A DNA stretch of 64,000 nt. Source: Chthoniobacterales bacterium. GTDB lineage: Bacteria; Verrucomicrobiota; Verrucomicrobiia; Chthoniobacterales; JACTMZ01. The notes below the pieces were generated by a model. That model was given only the letters and a program-made list of their open reading frames with translations. It had not been told where the DNA came from and did not search any database. Position 1 is the first letter of the stretch. The number at the start of each line of letters is the position of its first letter. Of the stretch, positions 20 through 10,788 are shown piece by piece. A program made the position numbers and the translations under genes. Where the stretch lies: NCBI GenBank assembly GCA_014879535.1, contig JACSRX010000019.1, positions 1 to 64,000 of the forward strand. Direction: 5' to 3'.

Positions 20-69
20 GCTCAACGCCTATTGACAACCCTCATAGGCGCTGCAGCGCATGGTTAGGC
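20..69 (-). other. Candidate attC site of cassette 2 (short, or continuing outside the window)
   Basis: Minus strand: GCCTAACCATGCGCTGCAGCGCC...AATAGGCGTTGAGC. GCCTAAC inverse core and GTTGAGC (GTTRRRY) are present; the true right end may be off-window. Confidence 0.5.
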
Positions 70-76
70 GTTGCGG

Positions 77-400
77 TCATGGCAGAGAGAACCTCCGAAC
101 TACGGTGTAAATAAGTCCGACTCCGAACCCGAGAAGGCATGGCAAAGTGAGCCAGAGGATGCTCGCCTCGCGAATGCCTGGCGATATGCGGGTGTAGATA
201 AAGGCGGCAAGCGGAAGACTGAGCAACGCCGCTGAGATGTCGAGAGTGCGTCGTAGCCACGGAGTCGCGCGGCGTGCCGGAATGAAAGTGCAGGCAACTC
301 CGAAAGCAGCGAGATAAAGGCCTGCCATAAAAAGGAACAGAACCAGAACGAAAAGGACGCCTAGGTCGAGTGGAACACTGCTGGCGAGAATCAGACTCAT
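77..400 (-). CDS. Hypothetical membrane protein, integron cassette gene
   Basis: 107-aa ORF with several hydrophobic segments, ending next to the attC-like site and in cassette orientation. Confidence 0.55.
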   Translation of the reverse strand: MSLILASSVPLDLGVLFVLVLFLFMAGLYLAAFGVACTFIPARRATPWLRRTLDISAALLSLPLAAFIYTRISPGIREASILWLTLPCLLGFGVGLIYTVVRRFSLP

Positions 401-470
401 CGATCACAGTGAGGTGTCCGGAATTGGTTTTGATGTATTCAGCCTTCGTTCAAAGGACGCGTGTAGCATC

Positions 471-597
471 GCCGAACGTCAAAGCTCACCTATCCCGATC
501 AGACCTTCAACTCTAAAACCGGTGTAATCGGCAGCACGATGGTCGAAATCGTGAACGCCCGAACTGCTAGGGATTAGGTGCAGCGCCTTGTTAGGCC
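471..597 (-). other. attC recombination site of cassette 1
   Basis: Minus strand starts GCCTAACAAGGCGCTGCACCT and ends AGGTGAGCTTTGACGTTCGGC. The L boxes pair (GCTGCACCT/AGGTGAGC) with one unpaired base, an attC hallmark. The cassette gene stop TAA lies inside GCCTAAC. Confidence 0.85.
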
Positions 598-956
598 TTC
601 GCGCTTGGAAGCAACATCGGAATTCCGAACTGAATACGTGAAGTCGTGGAGCTTGTAGCATCAGAGCGTCCCTGAGAGCCCAAACCAATCGTGCCCACCA
701 TAATACCAATTCCTCCCTTGGTCTCTGTTTCCTCCGCAGCGTAAACAGCAACATCAAACTGAATAAGATGAACTGCAGGATTCATTTGTTGGTCTGTCTG
801 AATATGGCCATACACCGTTGAGTTGTAGCTCGAATCACTCGGGAAGACATTTTCAGGATTGACCTTCGCTTTAGAGGCAGACAGCGCCGCATTGGCTTGG
901 TCGATACCCGTGGCAATCTGAACCAGAGTCTCAGAAATAAAGTCGCTCAATTGCAT
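591..956 (-). CDS. Conserved hypothetical protein (possibly trypco2-like), first integron cassette gene
   Basis: 121-aa ORF; FDVAV...GGIGI...SRIQFGIPMLLP pattern; stop codon lies inside the attC. Confidence 0.7.
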   Translation of the reverse strand: MQLSDFISETLVQIATGIDQANAALSASKAKVNPENVFPSDSSYNSTVYGHIQTDQQMNPAVHLIQFDVAVYAAEETETKGGIGIMVGTIGLGSQGRSDATSSTTSRIQFGIPMLLPSAKA

Positions 957-969
957 GATTCTATTTATG

Positions 970-976
970 GCCTAAC
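970..976 (-). other. Candidate attI/cassette boundary core site GTTAGGC
   Basis: Minus strand reads AGTAACAAGTTAGGCC immediately upstream of the first cassette ORF, between it and the integrase fragment. Confidence 0.6.
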
Positions 977-983
977 TTGTTAC

Positions 984-1015
984 TATGCGACTGGCAAAAA
1001 TTTCCCAGTCGCATA
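984..1015. repeat. Perfect 11-bp inverted repeat (hairpin) between integrase fragment and core site
   Basis: TATGCGACTGG-caaaaatttc-CCAGTCGCATA. Confidence 0.8.
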
Positions 1016-1051
1016 TTGCAGCATGGGTAGCCGGGGTGGTATTTGCGGTCA

Positions 1052-1201
1052 ATGACGATTTCGGATGCCTTGAAGAACTTGGAGGATGCGGCCCGGTTGC
1101 GGCATTTGTCGCTGGCGACGGAGAGGGCTTACGCGAGGTGGCTTCGGTCGTATATTGAAGCCGTGAGGGCTGCAGCCGCTGAGGGATTGAGTCCAAGTTG
1201 A
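1052..1201 (+). pseudogene. Truncated tyrosine recombinase (integron-integrase-like), N-terminal core-binding domain only
   Basis: Translation MTISDALKNLEDAARLRHLSLATERAYARWLRSYIEAVRAAAAEGLSPS*. The LRHxSxxTExAYxxWxRxxI pattern matches the N-terminal SAM-like domain of phage/integron integrases. No catalytic domain follows. Confidence 0.7.
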
Positions 1202-1288
1202 ATGTGGGTTGATAAACCGCACACAAGCCGCTCAAAATGCGGCGCTAAAGCGGATTAAGAAATGTCATAGCCCATTTTCCCGCCGACA

Positions 1289-1342
1289 GTAGGGGCGGCT
1301 GGCCTCAGCCGACCTCGGGCGCGTGAGGCCACACGCCCCTAC
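1289..1342. repeat. REP/MITE-like palindromic element
   Basis: Perfect 9-bp terminal inverted repeats GTAGGGGCG...CGCCCCTAC with further internal partial symmetry, in the gap before sucD. Confidence 0.6.
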
Positions 1343-1383
1343 CAAACAGCTTTGTCGTCGGCCACAGTATTTCCTAAACCGCT

Positions 1384-2256
1384 TTACTTCACCACCGCCA
1401 GCAACGTGTCGGCGATGGTGCTCGGCGTCTCGGCCACGGCGATGCCGGCATCGCGCAGCGCTTCCTTCTTGGCGGAAGCGGTGCCCTTGCCGCCGGAGAT
1501 GATCGCCCCGGCATGGCCCATGCGGCGCCCCGGAGGTGCCGTGGCACCGGCAATGAATCCGGCCACCGGTTTGTCGCAATTCTCCTTGAGCCAGGCGGCA
1601 GCCTCTTCCTCGGCCGACCCGCCGATTTCGCCGATGAGGATGATTCCGTGCGTGTCGGGATCGGCGGCGAACAATTGCACGGCGTCCAGAGTGGTCGTGC
1701 CGATGATCGGGTCTCCCCCGATGCCGATGCAGGTGGATTGACCGTGCCCGCGGCTGGTCAACTGCCACACGGCCTCGTAGGTCAGCGTGCCCGAGCGCGA
1801 CACCACGCCGATGTTCCCCGGTTTGTGGATGTAGCCGGGCATGATGCCGATCTTGCACTGGCCGGGGGTGATGATGCCGGGACAGTTCGGCCCGATGAGG
1901 CGCGAGTTCGAGGCCTTGAGCATTTCCTTCACGCGCATCATGTCCATGACCGGGATGCCCTCGGTGATGCAGACGATCAATTCCACCCCGGCGTCGGCCG
2001 CCTCGAGGATGGCGTCCGCCGCGAATTCCGGCGGGACGAAGATCATGGTGGCATTGCAGCCGGTCTGCTCGCGGGCCTCGTGAACCGTGTCGAAAACGGG
2101 CACCTTGTCTTCGAAGACCTCGCCGCCGCGGGCCGGAGTCACGCCAGCCACGACGTTGGTTCCGTATTCCATGCAACTGCGCGTGTGGAAAGCCCCGGAC
2201 TTCCCGGTGATGCCCTGGACGACAAGGCGTGTGTTTTTATCGACGAGAACGGACAT
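1384..2256 (-). CDS. sucD: Succinyl-CoA synthetase, alpha subunit
   Basis: 290 aa; [39 protein letters not shown] and [14 protein letters not shown] motifs. Confidence 0.96.
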
Positions 2257-7297: not shown

Positions 7298-8869
7298 ATG
7301 GGTCCGTCACGCACCTACAGCATCAAGGGGGTCGCCGCCACGTTGGCCGGCCTGGCGCTTCTTGCTGTGATTTTTGCCGCTTCCGTGACTTGGAACCACG
7401 CCCAAGTGATCGTTCCCCTGCAGGAAGGAGGGAGCCTCGTGGTGCTGGCCGATGGCGACTGCCAATCACGGATGCACAGGGCGGCCATGGTGGCGTCCCA
7501 CCCGGGGACGATCGTCCGCGCGCATGATTTTGAAAACTTTCCCGAGGGCACCGTGCCGCACACCACGGCTCCGATGGATTACCTCATCGCGGGCCTCGCA
7601 ATCGCGACTCCATCGTTCGACCTGGCCGGGGCGTGGATCTCGCCGTTGTTGGGACTGCTGACCGTGATCTTCCTGTGGTTCTGGTCCCGGCGGCTCGATC
7701 TGCGGCCGCGCTGGCCCATGCTGCTGCTCTTCTGCGTCTCGCCGGCACTCACGCATGCCTTCGCCCTCGGGCGACCGGATCATCAATCCCTGCTCGCGGC
7801 GCTCACCACCGTGGCCCTGACGGCGAACATGGCTTTCCTTCGCACGCAATCCGCATCATGGGCATGGACCTCGGGGGCGGCTTGGGGTCTGGCTTTATGG
7901 GTCTCCTGGTTCGAGCCGCTCATCCTCCTTGCCGCCCAAGAGATTGCCTGCGGCCTCGTTCTGCGCCGCGCCGCATGGCCGACCGCACGCCGCCGGGCGC
8001 TGCTGCTTGCGATCGTGTTCGCTCTGATTTCCTGGGCCTTGGAAGGCTTCCGCAGCCCGTGGCCATCCTCCGACGTGCGCGAGCTTTTCCCGCGATGGGC
8101 TTCCCTGCTCGGCGAGCTTCAACCCGCATCGCCGCGCGCACTTTTTGCATGGACCGGATGGCTGCTCGTCCCGGCACCGCTGCTGCTTGTGTGGGAATAT
8201 CTCCGACGGCGCGATCCACTCGCGATGATCTGCCTGGTCCTGCTGGTCGTCGTGACCGCGCTGACCGGATGGCAGGCAAGGTGGAGTCCGTGGTTGGCTT
8301 CCGTCTTCTGCCTGTCACTGCCGTGGATCCTCCGGCCTTTGCAGCGGTCATGGATCATCTGGGCGGTTTTCAGCGCCAGCCTCTGGCCCGTGGCCGGCGA
8401 GTGGGAGGCGCGTCTCTTCCCCGAGGAATCCGAGCAGGCTCGCCGTTCCGGAAACATCGCGGAAGCCGCCATGCTGGAAGAGACCGCAGCATTCCTCCGC
8501 TCGCAACCGCCGGGTGGCGTGCTTGCCCCATGGTGGATTTCCCCCGCGCTGGCACGCCTCGGCAACCACCCGATGGTGGGCGGAACCTCGCACCAGAGCC
8601 TGCCGGGCTCCGCCGACACCGCGCGATTCTTCCTCACCGGGAATTGGGAAACCGCCGCAGCCATCCTTCGCGACAGGAAGGTGGATTACGTCGTGAGCGA
8701 TGCACCCGAACGGATCCTTCCCACCTCCGCCGTGCTGCTCGGAATCGAAGCGCCGGAACATCCCGTGGCGGTTCGCCTGGCGCGCGGGAAGGATCTTCCG
8801 TCCTTCCTTCAGCCCGTGTTCGCCAACGCCTATTTCCGCGTCTATAAAGTGGACCATGAGCGACTTTGA
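7298..8869 (+). CDS. STT3/PglB-like oligosaccharyltransferase-type multi-TM protein
   Basis: Multi-TM protein with ADGDCQSRMHRA near the N-terminus and HDFENFPEGTVPHTTAPMDYLIAGLA, resembling STT3 first-loop/EL motifs; C-terminal soluble part. Confidence 0.6.
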   Translation: MGPSRTYSIKGVAATLAGLALLAVIFAASVTWNHAQVIVPLQEGGSLVVLADGDCQSRMHRAAMVASHPGTIVRAHDFENFPEGTVPHTTAPMDYLIAGLAIATPSFDLAGAWISPLLGLLTVIFLWFWSRRLDLRPRWPMLLLFCVSPALTHAFALGRPDHQSLLAALTTVALTANMAFLRTQSASWAWTSGAAWGLALWVSWFEPLILLAAQEIACGLVLRRAAWPTARRRALLLAIVFALISWALEGFRSPWPSSDVRELFPRWASLLGELQPASPRALFAWTGWLLVPAPLLLVWEYLRRRDPLAMICLVLLVVVTALTGWQARWSPWLASVFCLSLPWILRPLQRSWIIWAVFSASLWPVAGEWEARLFPEESEQARRSGNIAEAAMLEETAAFLRSQPPGGVLAPWWISPALARLGNHPMVGGTSHQSLPGSADTARFFLTGNWETAAAILRDRKVDYVVSDAPERILPTSAVLLGIEAPEHPVAVRLARGKDLPSFLQPVFANAYFRVYKVDHERL

Positions 8870-10256
8870 CTTCGTCGTCCTCGGGGGCGGCAGCGCCGGC
8901 TACGCCGCCGCGCGCACCGCGGCCGCCGAAGGACTGCGCACCGCCGTTCTCGACAGCTCCGAGGAATTGGGAGGGCTCTGCATCCTGCGGGGCTGCATGC
9001 CGAGCAAGACGCTCATCGAATCGGCCAATCGCATGCTGGAAATCAAGGAGGCGGGCGAGTTCGGAATTGCCACCTCCGGCGCAACCTGCGATGGCGCCAA
9101 GATCATCGGACGCAAACGCCGCCTCATCGGCGAGTTCGCCCGCCACCGCGCGGAACAGCTCGAGCACGGGCAATTCGAACTCATCCGCGGTCACGGAAGC
9201 TTCGCCGGACCGGATGACATCAAGATCCGGCTGCGGACCGGCGGGGAACAAAGCATCCGCGCCCGCACCGTTCTTATCTCCACCGGCTCGGTCATCCGCC
9301 ATCCGGACATCCCGGGTCTGACCGGGGCCGCACCGTTGACCAGTGACGTCGTGCTTGACAATCCCCGTCCACCGAAATCCCTCCTCGTTCTGGGCGCCGG
9401 CCCCGTCGCACTGGAAATGGCGCACTATCACGCCGCGCTCGGGTCGGATGTCACCGTCGTCCAGCGCAGCCCTCAGGTCCTCAGCTCGATGGACCGCGAT
9501 GTGGCGGATGCGGTGCAACACGGCATGGAGCGCCACGGCACAAAGTTCGTCCTCGGCTGCAAAATTCTCTCAGCCGGACGCAGTCCGCGGGGCAAATGGG
9601 TCCGTGTCGCCCACGACGACCGAGAGGAAACGCTCGAAGCGGAGGAGATCCTTCTCGCTCTCGGCCGCGATCCCGCCACAGCCGGGCTCGGGTTGGGTGC
9701 GGCCGGGTTCGACACGGCTCCGGGCGCAGCCTTGGCCACAAGCGACACGCAGCAGACCTCCGTCCCCCACATCTTCGGAGCCGGGGATGTGACGGGGGAA
9801 CTGGAAATCGTCCACATCGCCATCGAGCAGGGCGAAATTGCGGCGCGCAATGCGGCGCGTCTCCTGAGGGGCGGCGGCGAACCCCTGGAAACCATCGACT
9901 ACCGTCTGCGCCTGTTCGCAGTATTCACCCAACCGGAAGCGGCCATGGTCGGCCTGACCGAGCGAGAAGCGTCGGCCCTGGGCATGGACGCCGCCTCCGC
10001 CACCCACCCCTTCGACGACCATGGCAAATCCCTCGTGCAGGGCAAGATCGACGGCTTCGTGAAGCTCATTGCCGACCGCGCCACAGGGGAACTCGTCGGA
10101 GGGGCGGTGGTCGGACCCCACGCTTCCGAACTCATCCATGAAGTTGTCGTCGCCATGCGTTACCGGGCCACAGCGGCCGAATTCCTGAAAATCCCCCACT
10201 ACCACCCCACCCTCAGCGAAATCTGGACCTACCCCGCCGAGGAGCTGGCCGGGTGA
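8856..10256 (+). CDS. Pyridine nucleotide-disulfide oxidoreductase (dihydrolipoamide dehydrogenase/mercuric reductase-like)
   Basis: FDFVVLGGGSAGYAAA FAD motif, CILRGCMPSK redox-active CxxxxC, dimerisation domain; overlaps previous gene by 14 nt. Confidence 0.85.
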   Translation: MSDFDFVVLGGGSAGYAAARTAAAEGLRTAVLDSSEELGGLCILRGCMPSKTLIESANRMLEIKEAGEFGIATSGATCDGAKIIGRKRRLIGEFARHRAEQLEHGQFELIRGHGSFAGPDDIKIRLRTGGEQSIRARTVLISTGSVIRHPDIPGLTGAAPLTSDVVLDNPRPPKSLLVLGAGPVALEMAHYHAALGSDVTVVQRSPQVLSSMDRDVADAVQHGMERHGTKFVLGCKILSAGRSPRGKWVRVAHDDREETLEAEEILLALGRDPATAGLGLGAAGFDTAPGAALATSDTQQTSVPHIFGAGDVTGELEIVHIAIEQGEIAARNAARLLRGGGEPLETIDYRLRLFAVFTQPEAAMVGLTEREASALGMDAASATHPFDDHGKSLVQGKIDGFVKLIADRATGELVGGAVVGPHASELIHEVVVAMRYRATAAEFLKIPHYHPTLSEIWTYPAEELAG

Positions 10257-10368
10257 CCGGCCCTCGCGACACCCCGGAATCCGCCGAGGTTTCGTTTTGA
10301 CACCCCCTGCTGAAACCTTAAGTTGGTGCCTCCATCAAACAATGAATCTCAGCAATTTTGTGAATCCC

Positions 10369-10788
10369 ATGAGCGACCCAACCACCGCCGGCACCAACCG
10401 CAACCACCTTTCCAGCGACGTCGAAATCAAAGGCACCCTCAAGTTCCAGAACGACCTCGTTTTCGACGGCAAGATCGAAGGTGAAATCGTCTCGAATGCC
10501 ACCCTCACCGTCGGCAAGAGCGCCCACGTCCAAGGCGAGGTGAAGTCGAAATCCGTCATCATCCTCGGCTCCGTCCAAGGCAACATCGATGCCGCCGAGC
10601 GCGTCGAGCTCAAGGCGACCGCCCAGCTCATCGGCGACCTGCGCGCCGGGCGCATCGTCATCGAGGATGGCGCCACCTTCGTCGGCAAGTCGGAAGTCAG
10701 CCCGAACAAATCCGCGCTCCAACGCGCGGAAAGTTCCCGCCCGGCCGGCCCCAGCACGACGGAGCAGCCGAAAAAAGGCCTGATCTGA
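10369..10788 (+). CDS. Bactofilin (polymer-forming cytoskeletal protein)
   Basis: SDVEIKGTLKFQNDLVFDGKIEGEIVSNATLTVGKSAHVQGEV beta-helix repeat typical of bactofilins; upstream in-frame starts exist. Confidence 0.88.
   Translation: MSDPTTAGTNRNHLSSDVEIKGTLKFQNDLVFDGKIEGEIVSNATLTVGKSAHVQGEVKSKSVIILGSVQGNIDAAERVELKATAQLIGDLRAGRIVIEDGATFVGKSEVSPNKSALQRAESSRPAGPSTTEQPKKGLI

Follow-up and report, generated by a model that had tools for sequence, protein, structure and literature searches.

The left end of contig C93, where two minus-strand ORFs and a short gene fragment running divergently from them lie next to sucD, raises the question of whether an integron once resided here and, if so, what has become of it. 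The window referred to below is the whole stretch of DNA analysed, i.e. the first 64 kb of this contig (92,870 bp), which belongs to a draft genome of 3.17 Mb in 97 contigs; the contig begins at base 1 of the window and there is no sequence left of it. Among named sequences, the sucD product is matched best, at 96% protein identity, by that of a Chthoniobacterales MAG, which would place the host in this order of the Verrucomicrobiota. The features listed in Table 1 are best read as the attI-proximal end of a chromosomal integron in which a deletion or rearrangement has destroyed the element's own integrase gene, a reading to which a probability of about 0.9 is assigned. With the same high confidence, codons 1-49 of intI, the attI site, one full cassette together with its attC, and the beginning of a second cassette are regarded as what the loss of intI has left at the locus. 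The element is a remnant rather than a complete integron, since the retained codons encode neither the domain specific to IntI nor the tyrosine-recombinase catalytic residues.

Table 1. Integron-related features and host flank at the left end of the window (position 1 is the first base of contig C93).
Feature	Position	Strand	Remarks
Start of cassette 2 attC, truncated at contig end	1..69	-	R'' GCCTAAC 63-69; weak R2 match 20-69
Gene cassette 2, cut by contig end	1..476	-	
Cassette 2 ORF	77..400	-	107 aa from ATG, hydrophobic
attC of cassette 1	471..596	-	126 nt; R'' GCCTAAC, L'' GCTGCACCTA, L' TAGGTGAGC, R' GTTCGGC
Gene cassette 1	477..975	-	499 bp between attI and attC crossover points; bounds read from R boxes
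Cassette 1 ORF	591..956	-	121 aa; TAA stop inside attC R'' box GCCTAAC
attI core CAGTCGCATAGTAACAAGTTAGGC	970..993	-	R box GTTAGGC 970-976
intI N-terminal 49 aa, truncated	1052..1201	+	ATG 1052, stop codon 1199-1201
Interspersed repeat between intI remnant and sucD, into last sucD bases	1239..1386		
sucD, host flank	1384..2256	-	

The site that closes cassette 1 is a genuine attC. Its minus strand, read from 596 to 471, is GCCTAAC-AAGGC-GCT(G)CACCTA ... TAGGTGAGC-TTTGAC-GTTCGGC. The initial annotation had described a textbook attC here, with paired L boxes and one extrahelical base, and had named a covariance search and folding of the minus strand as ways to verify it; both agree with the description. 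The L boxes GCT(G)CACCTA and TAGGTGAGC pair and leave a single extrahelical G, on direct reading as well as in the minimum-energy DNA fold. The covariance model R2, built with loops included from 20 attC sites lying outside the window (contigs C38 and C83 of the same genome and the sister genomes G007 and G009; the window itself was left out), in which the L-box pairs covary strongly, matches the site at 40.8 bits (E=3.1e-7), the next match in the 64 kb reaching 12.3 bits. An arm/pairing log-odds score trained on 14 outside attC sites gives 56.8 for the site, just 6.3 for its plus strand and a maximum of 14.6 for the background (∼165 kb of strand). When true attC sites were left out in turn, most of them scored 42-71, and two that were out of register gave 8 and -12. 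In view of this score and of the held-out covariance match, the site is not a product of chance. Taken by itself, the folding energy gives a weak signal (z about -1.5), and the arms-only covariance model R1 yields a 39-nt partial alignment (558-596, 13.3 bits), probably owing to its short maximum hit length. A search against Rfam gave no attC match at the locus, only a chance match. True attC sites and background could not be told apart by an initial, simple scan of arm alignments, which was replaced.

Integron crossover falls between G and TT of the R box. The claim that both minus-strand ORFs terminate at GCCTAAC, and that the first of them has its stop codon within the attC, holds for cassette 1 but not for cassette 2, the TGA of which (77-79) precedes the box by 7 bp; a longer, GTG-initiated frame of cassette 2 (42-407) reads through the box. 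The product of the cassette 1 ORF is 32.5% identical to a hypothetical plasmid protein and was given no confident family by the profile search (Trypco2 matched weakly, E=0.2); that of cassette 2 has no family match, and family and homologue searches revealed no informative relatives of the cassette proteins. In total, a single attC is complete at the locus, and of another just the beginning is present before the contig stops; the 41 bp at 49-89 are 88% identical to an arm of the attC at C83:99181-99304. The GC content of the cassettes (0.50-0.56) differs from that of the flank (0.61-0.67).

The attI-like end that had been pointed out upstream of cassette 1 (AACAAGTTAGGCC, 969-981, minus strand) proved to be part of a recognisable attI. 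There is a single occurrence of the pattern CAGTCGCATAGTAACAAGTTAGGC in the window. Two genomes that belong to other families of the same order (G058 and G043) have an alignable sequence upstream of their homologous intI genes, and the pattern shares CAGTCGC..AACAA.GTTAGGC with the class 1 attI1, whose letters were confirmed in at least 5,000 plasmid records. The site adjoins the start of intI, and the cassettes run divergently from that gene. Between attI and the intI start lies a perfect 10-bp inverted repeat, ATGCGACTGG-N10-CCAGTCGCAT (985-1014); in G058 and G043, good conservation is confined to its attI half.

The 49-aa fragment itself, suspected to be the N-terminus of a divergent integrase, matches TIGR02249 (E=3e-4) and PF13495 (E=7e-4); its TIGR02249 score of 20.2 bits is below the cut-off of 265, as expected for 49 of ∼320 aa. 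Its best matches are integron integrases, the nearest homologues in the order being of the same lineage. Among the 213 genomes of the order scanned, the closest relatives are the N-termini in G058 and G043 (59-62% identity), and in G058 the remaining integrase domains are present in another frame. The next relative, in G039 (49% identity to the fragment), is a full integron integrase with a TIGR02249 score of 269.4, above the cut-off. Homology of the fragment fades after about residue 46, and a search of the other ten genomes of the genus did not find the fragment. Since only 182 bp separate its stop codon (1201) from that of sucD (1384), too short a distance for the missing ∼270 aa, intI is truncated. 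Taken with the covariance match of attC and the homology of attI, this limit and the IntI N-terminus support the initial annotation in regarding the locus as the proximal end of a chromosomal array with a truncated integrase.

The same features bear on a quite different origin, namely a CALIN that arose when the integrases resident on contigs C38 and C70 inserted cassettes off target, with the 49-aa fragment being the relic of an unrelated tyrosine recombinase. That CALINs can originate from such insertions is accepted (PMC8618304), many attC sites of this genome have no neighbouring intI, and the model trained on other arrays, the resident ones included, recognises the attC of the window. However, the locus has attI and the beginning of intI in precisely the divergent arrangement of an integron, and both have homologues at the junction of intI and attI in G058 and G043, which makes such an origin very improbable.

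The reading as a decayed integron has also to be considered in relation to the other integrons of the genome. Two longer integron integrases are encoded elsewhere, on C38 (417 bits) and C70 (399 bits; this contig ends near the N-terminus), and 11 contigs yield a total of 20 matches to the attC model. The arrays at C38, at the end of C83 and at the start of C5 have one attI sequence in common, of the GTTGACCAATATACGTTGGGC type, which would be in line with the remnant being a duplicated and decayed copy of this main integron. The attI of the window, however, differs from that type. Identity of the fragment to the C38 IntI is only 37.5% (over 32 residues), as opposed to 62% to the IntI of other families. 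Furthermore, the C38 IntI carries an N-terminal extension of ∼130 aa, whereas the fragment, like the IntI of G058, starts at an ATG of its own near attI, so that a duplicated copy is extremely unlikely. The integron in the window belongs instead to a second lineage, now inactivated, and the genome, with its several integrons, contains two integrase lineages with different attI sites and a common type of attC.

The position of the remnant beside sucD calls for more caution. The two had been reported as neighbours, and so they are in the assembly, but the junction runs through an interspersed repeat that is partially matched at about 20 other places in the genome and in copies of which contigs C15, C38 and C39 end. 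In the sister species, another gene usually follows sucD; the copy of this usual neighbour in the genome studied lies on contig C86, without sucD. In view of the repeat with its contig ends and of the neighbour on C86, a rearrangement at the sucD junction is likely and a mis-assembly through the repeat possible. That the integron piece is real but was wrongly joined to sucD in a chimeric assembly is nevertheless considered quite unlikely: the copy of the repeat in the window differs by 5-15% from most of the others, the flank after sucD varies among the sister species anyway, and the attC type fits this genome. The truncation of intI, being ∼37 bp outside the repeat, is independent of the junction. 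A search of C86 for the far end of the array revealed no cassettes there, and its region 8000-10686 gave no attC. The repeat is palindrome-like, of the GTAGGGGCGG...CGCCCCTAC type, and one of its copies abuts the intI stop codon on C70.

In integrons, IntI recombines folded single-stranded attC bottom strands into attI, and a promoter near attI reads the cassettes. The integron of the window would formerly have been an ordinary one, its IntI inserting cassettes that lack promoters downstream of one located in the intI/attI region; a promoter scan detected no sigma-70-like promoter on the cassette strand. With its own integrase lost, the array would have become frozen in cis. Since other integrons of the genome have apparently complete integrases, its cassettes may not necessarily be immobile, and, because the attC type is shared, the IntI of C38 or C70 may possibly still move them in trans. 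The locus thereby offers a natural example for asking how the loss of an integrase freezes an array and whether a second integrase takes over.

Broken integrases recur in the order: that of G058 is frameshifted, that of G157 has an internal deletion, and G043 and G143 keep only the IntI N-terminus, accompanied in G043 by attI and a weak attC. One might suppose that, once a costly recombinase had been lost, selection maintained the 5' end of intI and attI in the role of a fixed cassette promoter, the attC sites staying open to the two longer IntI proteins in trans. This seems unlikely, and two or three cases such as G043 and G143 do not show selection.

The decayed integron is real but ordinary in kind, a well-known type of genomic relic, and belongs with the pseudo-integrons already described (Nemergut et al. 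2008, PMC2426708). In these, too, attI and attC-bearing cassettes are retained while the integrase is inactivated, and genomes with more than one intI, of different lineages, are described there as well; the present remnant differs in that only the first 49 codons are left. About one third of the intI genes in that survey, the text of which does not contain the word Verrucomicrobia, are pseudogenes. A clear case of integron decay is hereby added for Chthoniobacterales. In arrays of the CALIN type (PMC8618304), too, the cassettes carry attC but no working integrase lies next to them, and such arrays have been proposed to arise, among other ways, by loss of intI. A CALIN has by definition at least two attC sites with no intI nearby; at the locus fewer than two complete ones are seen, the second being cut by the contig end, and both attI and the 5' remnant of intI are kept. 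As these are recognisable, origin by loss of intI is visible here.

Class 1 integrons (intI1-attI1) resemble the remnant in the divergent arrangement of intI and cassettes, in the attI core and in the extrahelical base of attC, but the remnant is chromosomal, its integrase is truncated and its cassette products have no assigned family. The integron of G058 (L071), from another family of the same order, has a homologous attI and IntI N-terminus (62%) and a cassette-like gene directly after attI. In contrast to that of the window, its intI is almost whole, with one frameshift near a run of A that may be a sequencing error, and the R2 model found no attC in the G058 stretch examined (L071).

Several features of the other arrays deserve mention in their own right. 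A nearly identical attI (GTTGACCAATATACGTTSGGC) starts three arrays on different contigs (L097:1-60, L017:1950-2020 and L019:7790-7850), which reflects either several integron copies or a mixture of strains in the bin. The N-terminal extension of the C38 IntI includes a second SAM-like match; an extension of ∼130 aa is present on the integron integrases at L017:2020-3391 and L018:11559-12780, and long IntI proteins are also encoded in the sister genomes G007 and G009 and in G011. The extension resembles, in length, that of a group of IntI proteins ∼120 aa longer in the survey of Nemergut et al. (PMC2426708). Finally, a cassette array contains a gene of an IS110-family transposase (PF01548, PF02371; L019:5320-6660, corresponding to about 100319-101659 of G000:C83), which lies directly after an attC arm (L019:5320-5370) and calls to mind the IS110/IS1111 elements known to have attC sites as their targets.
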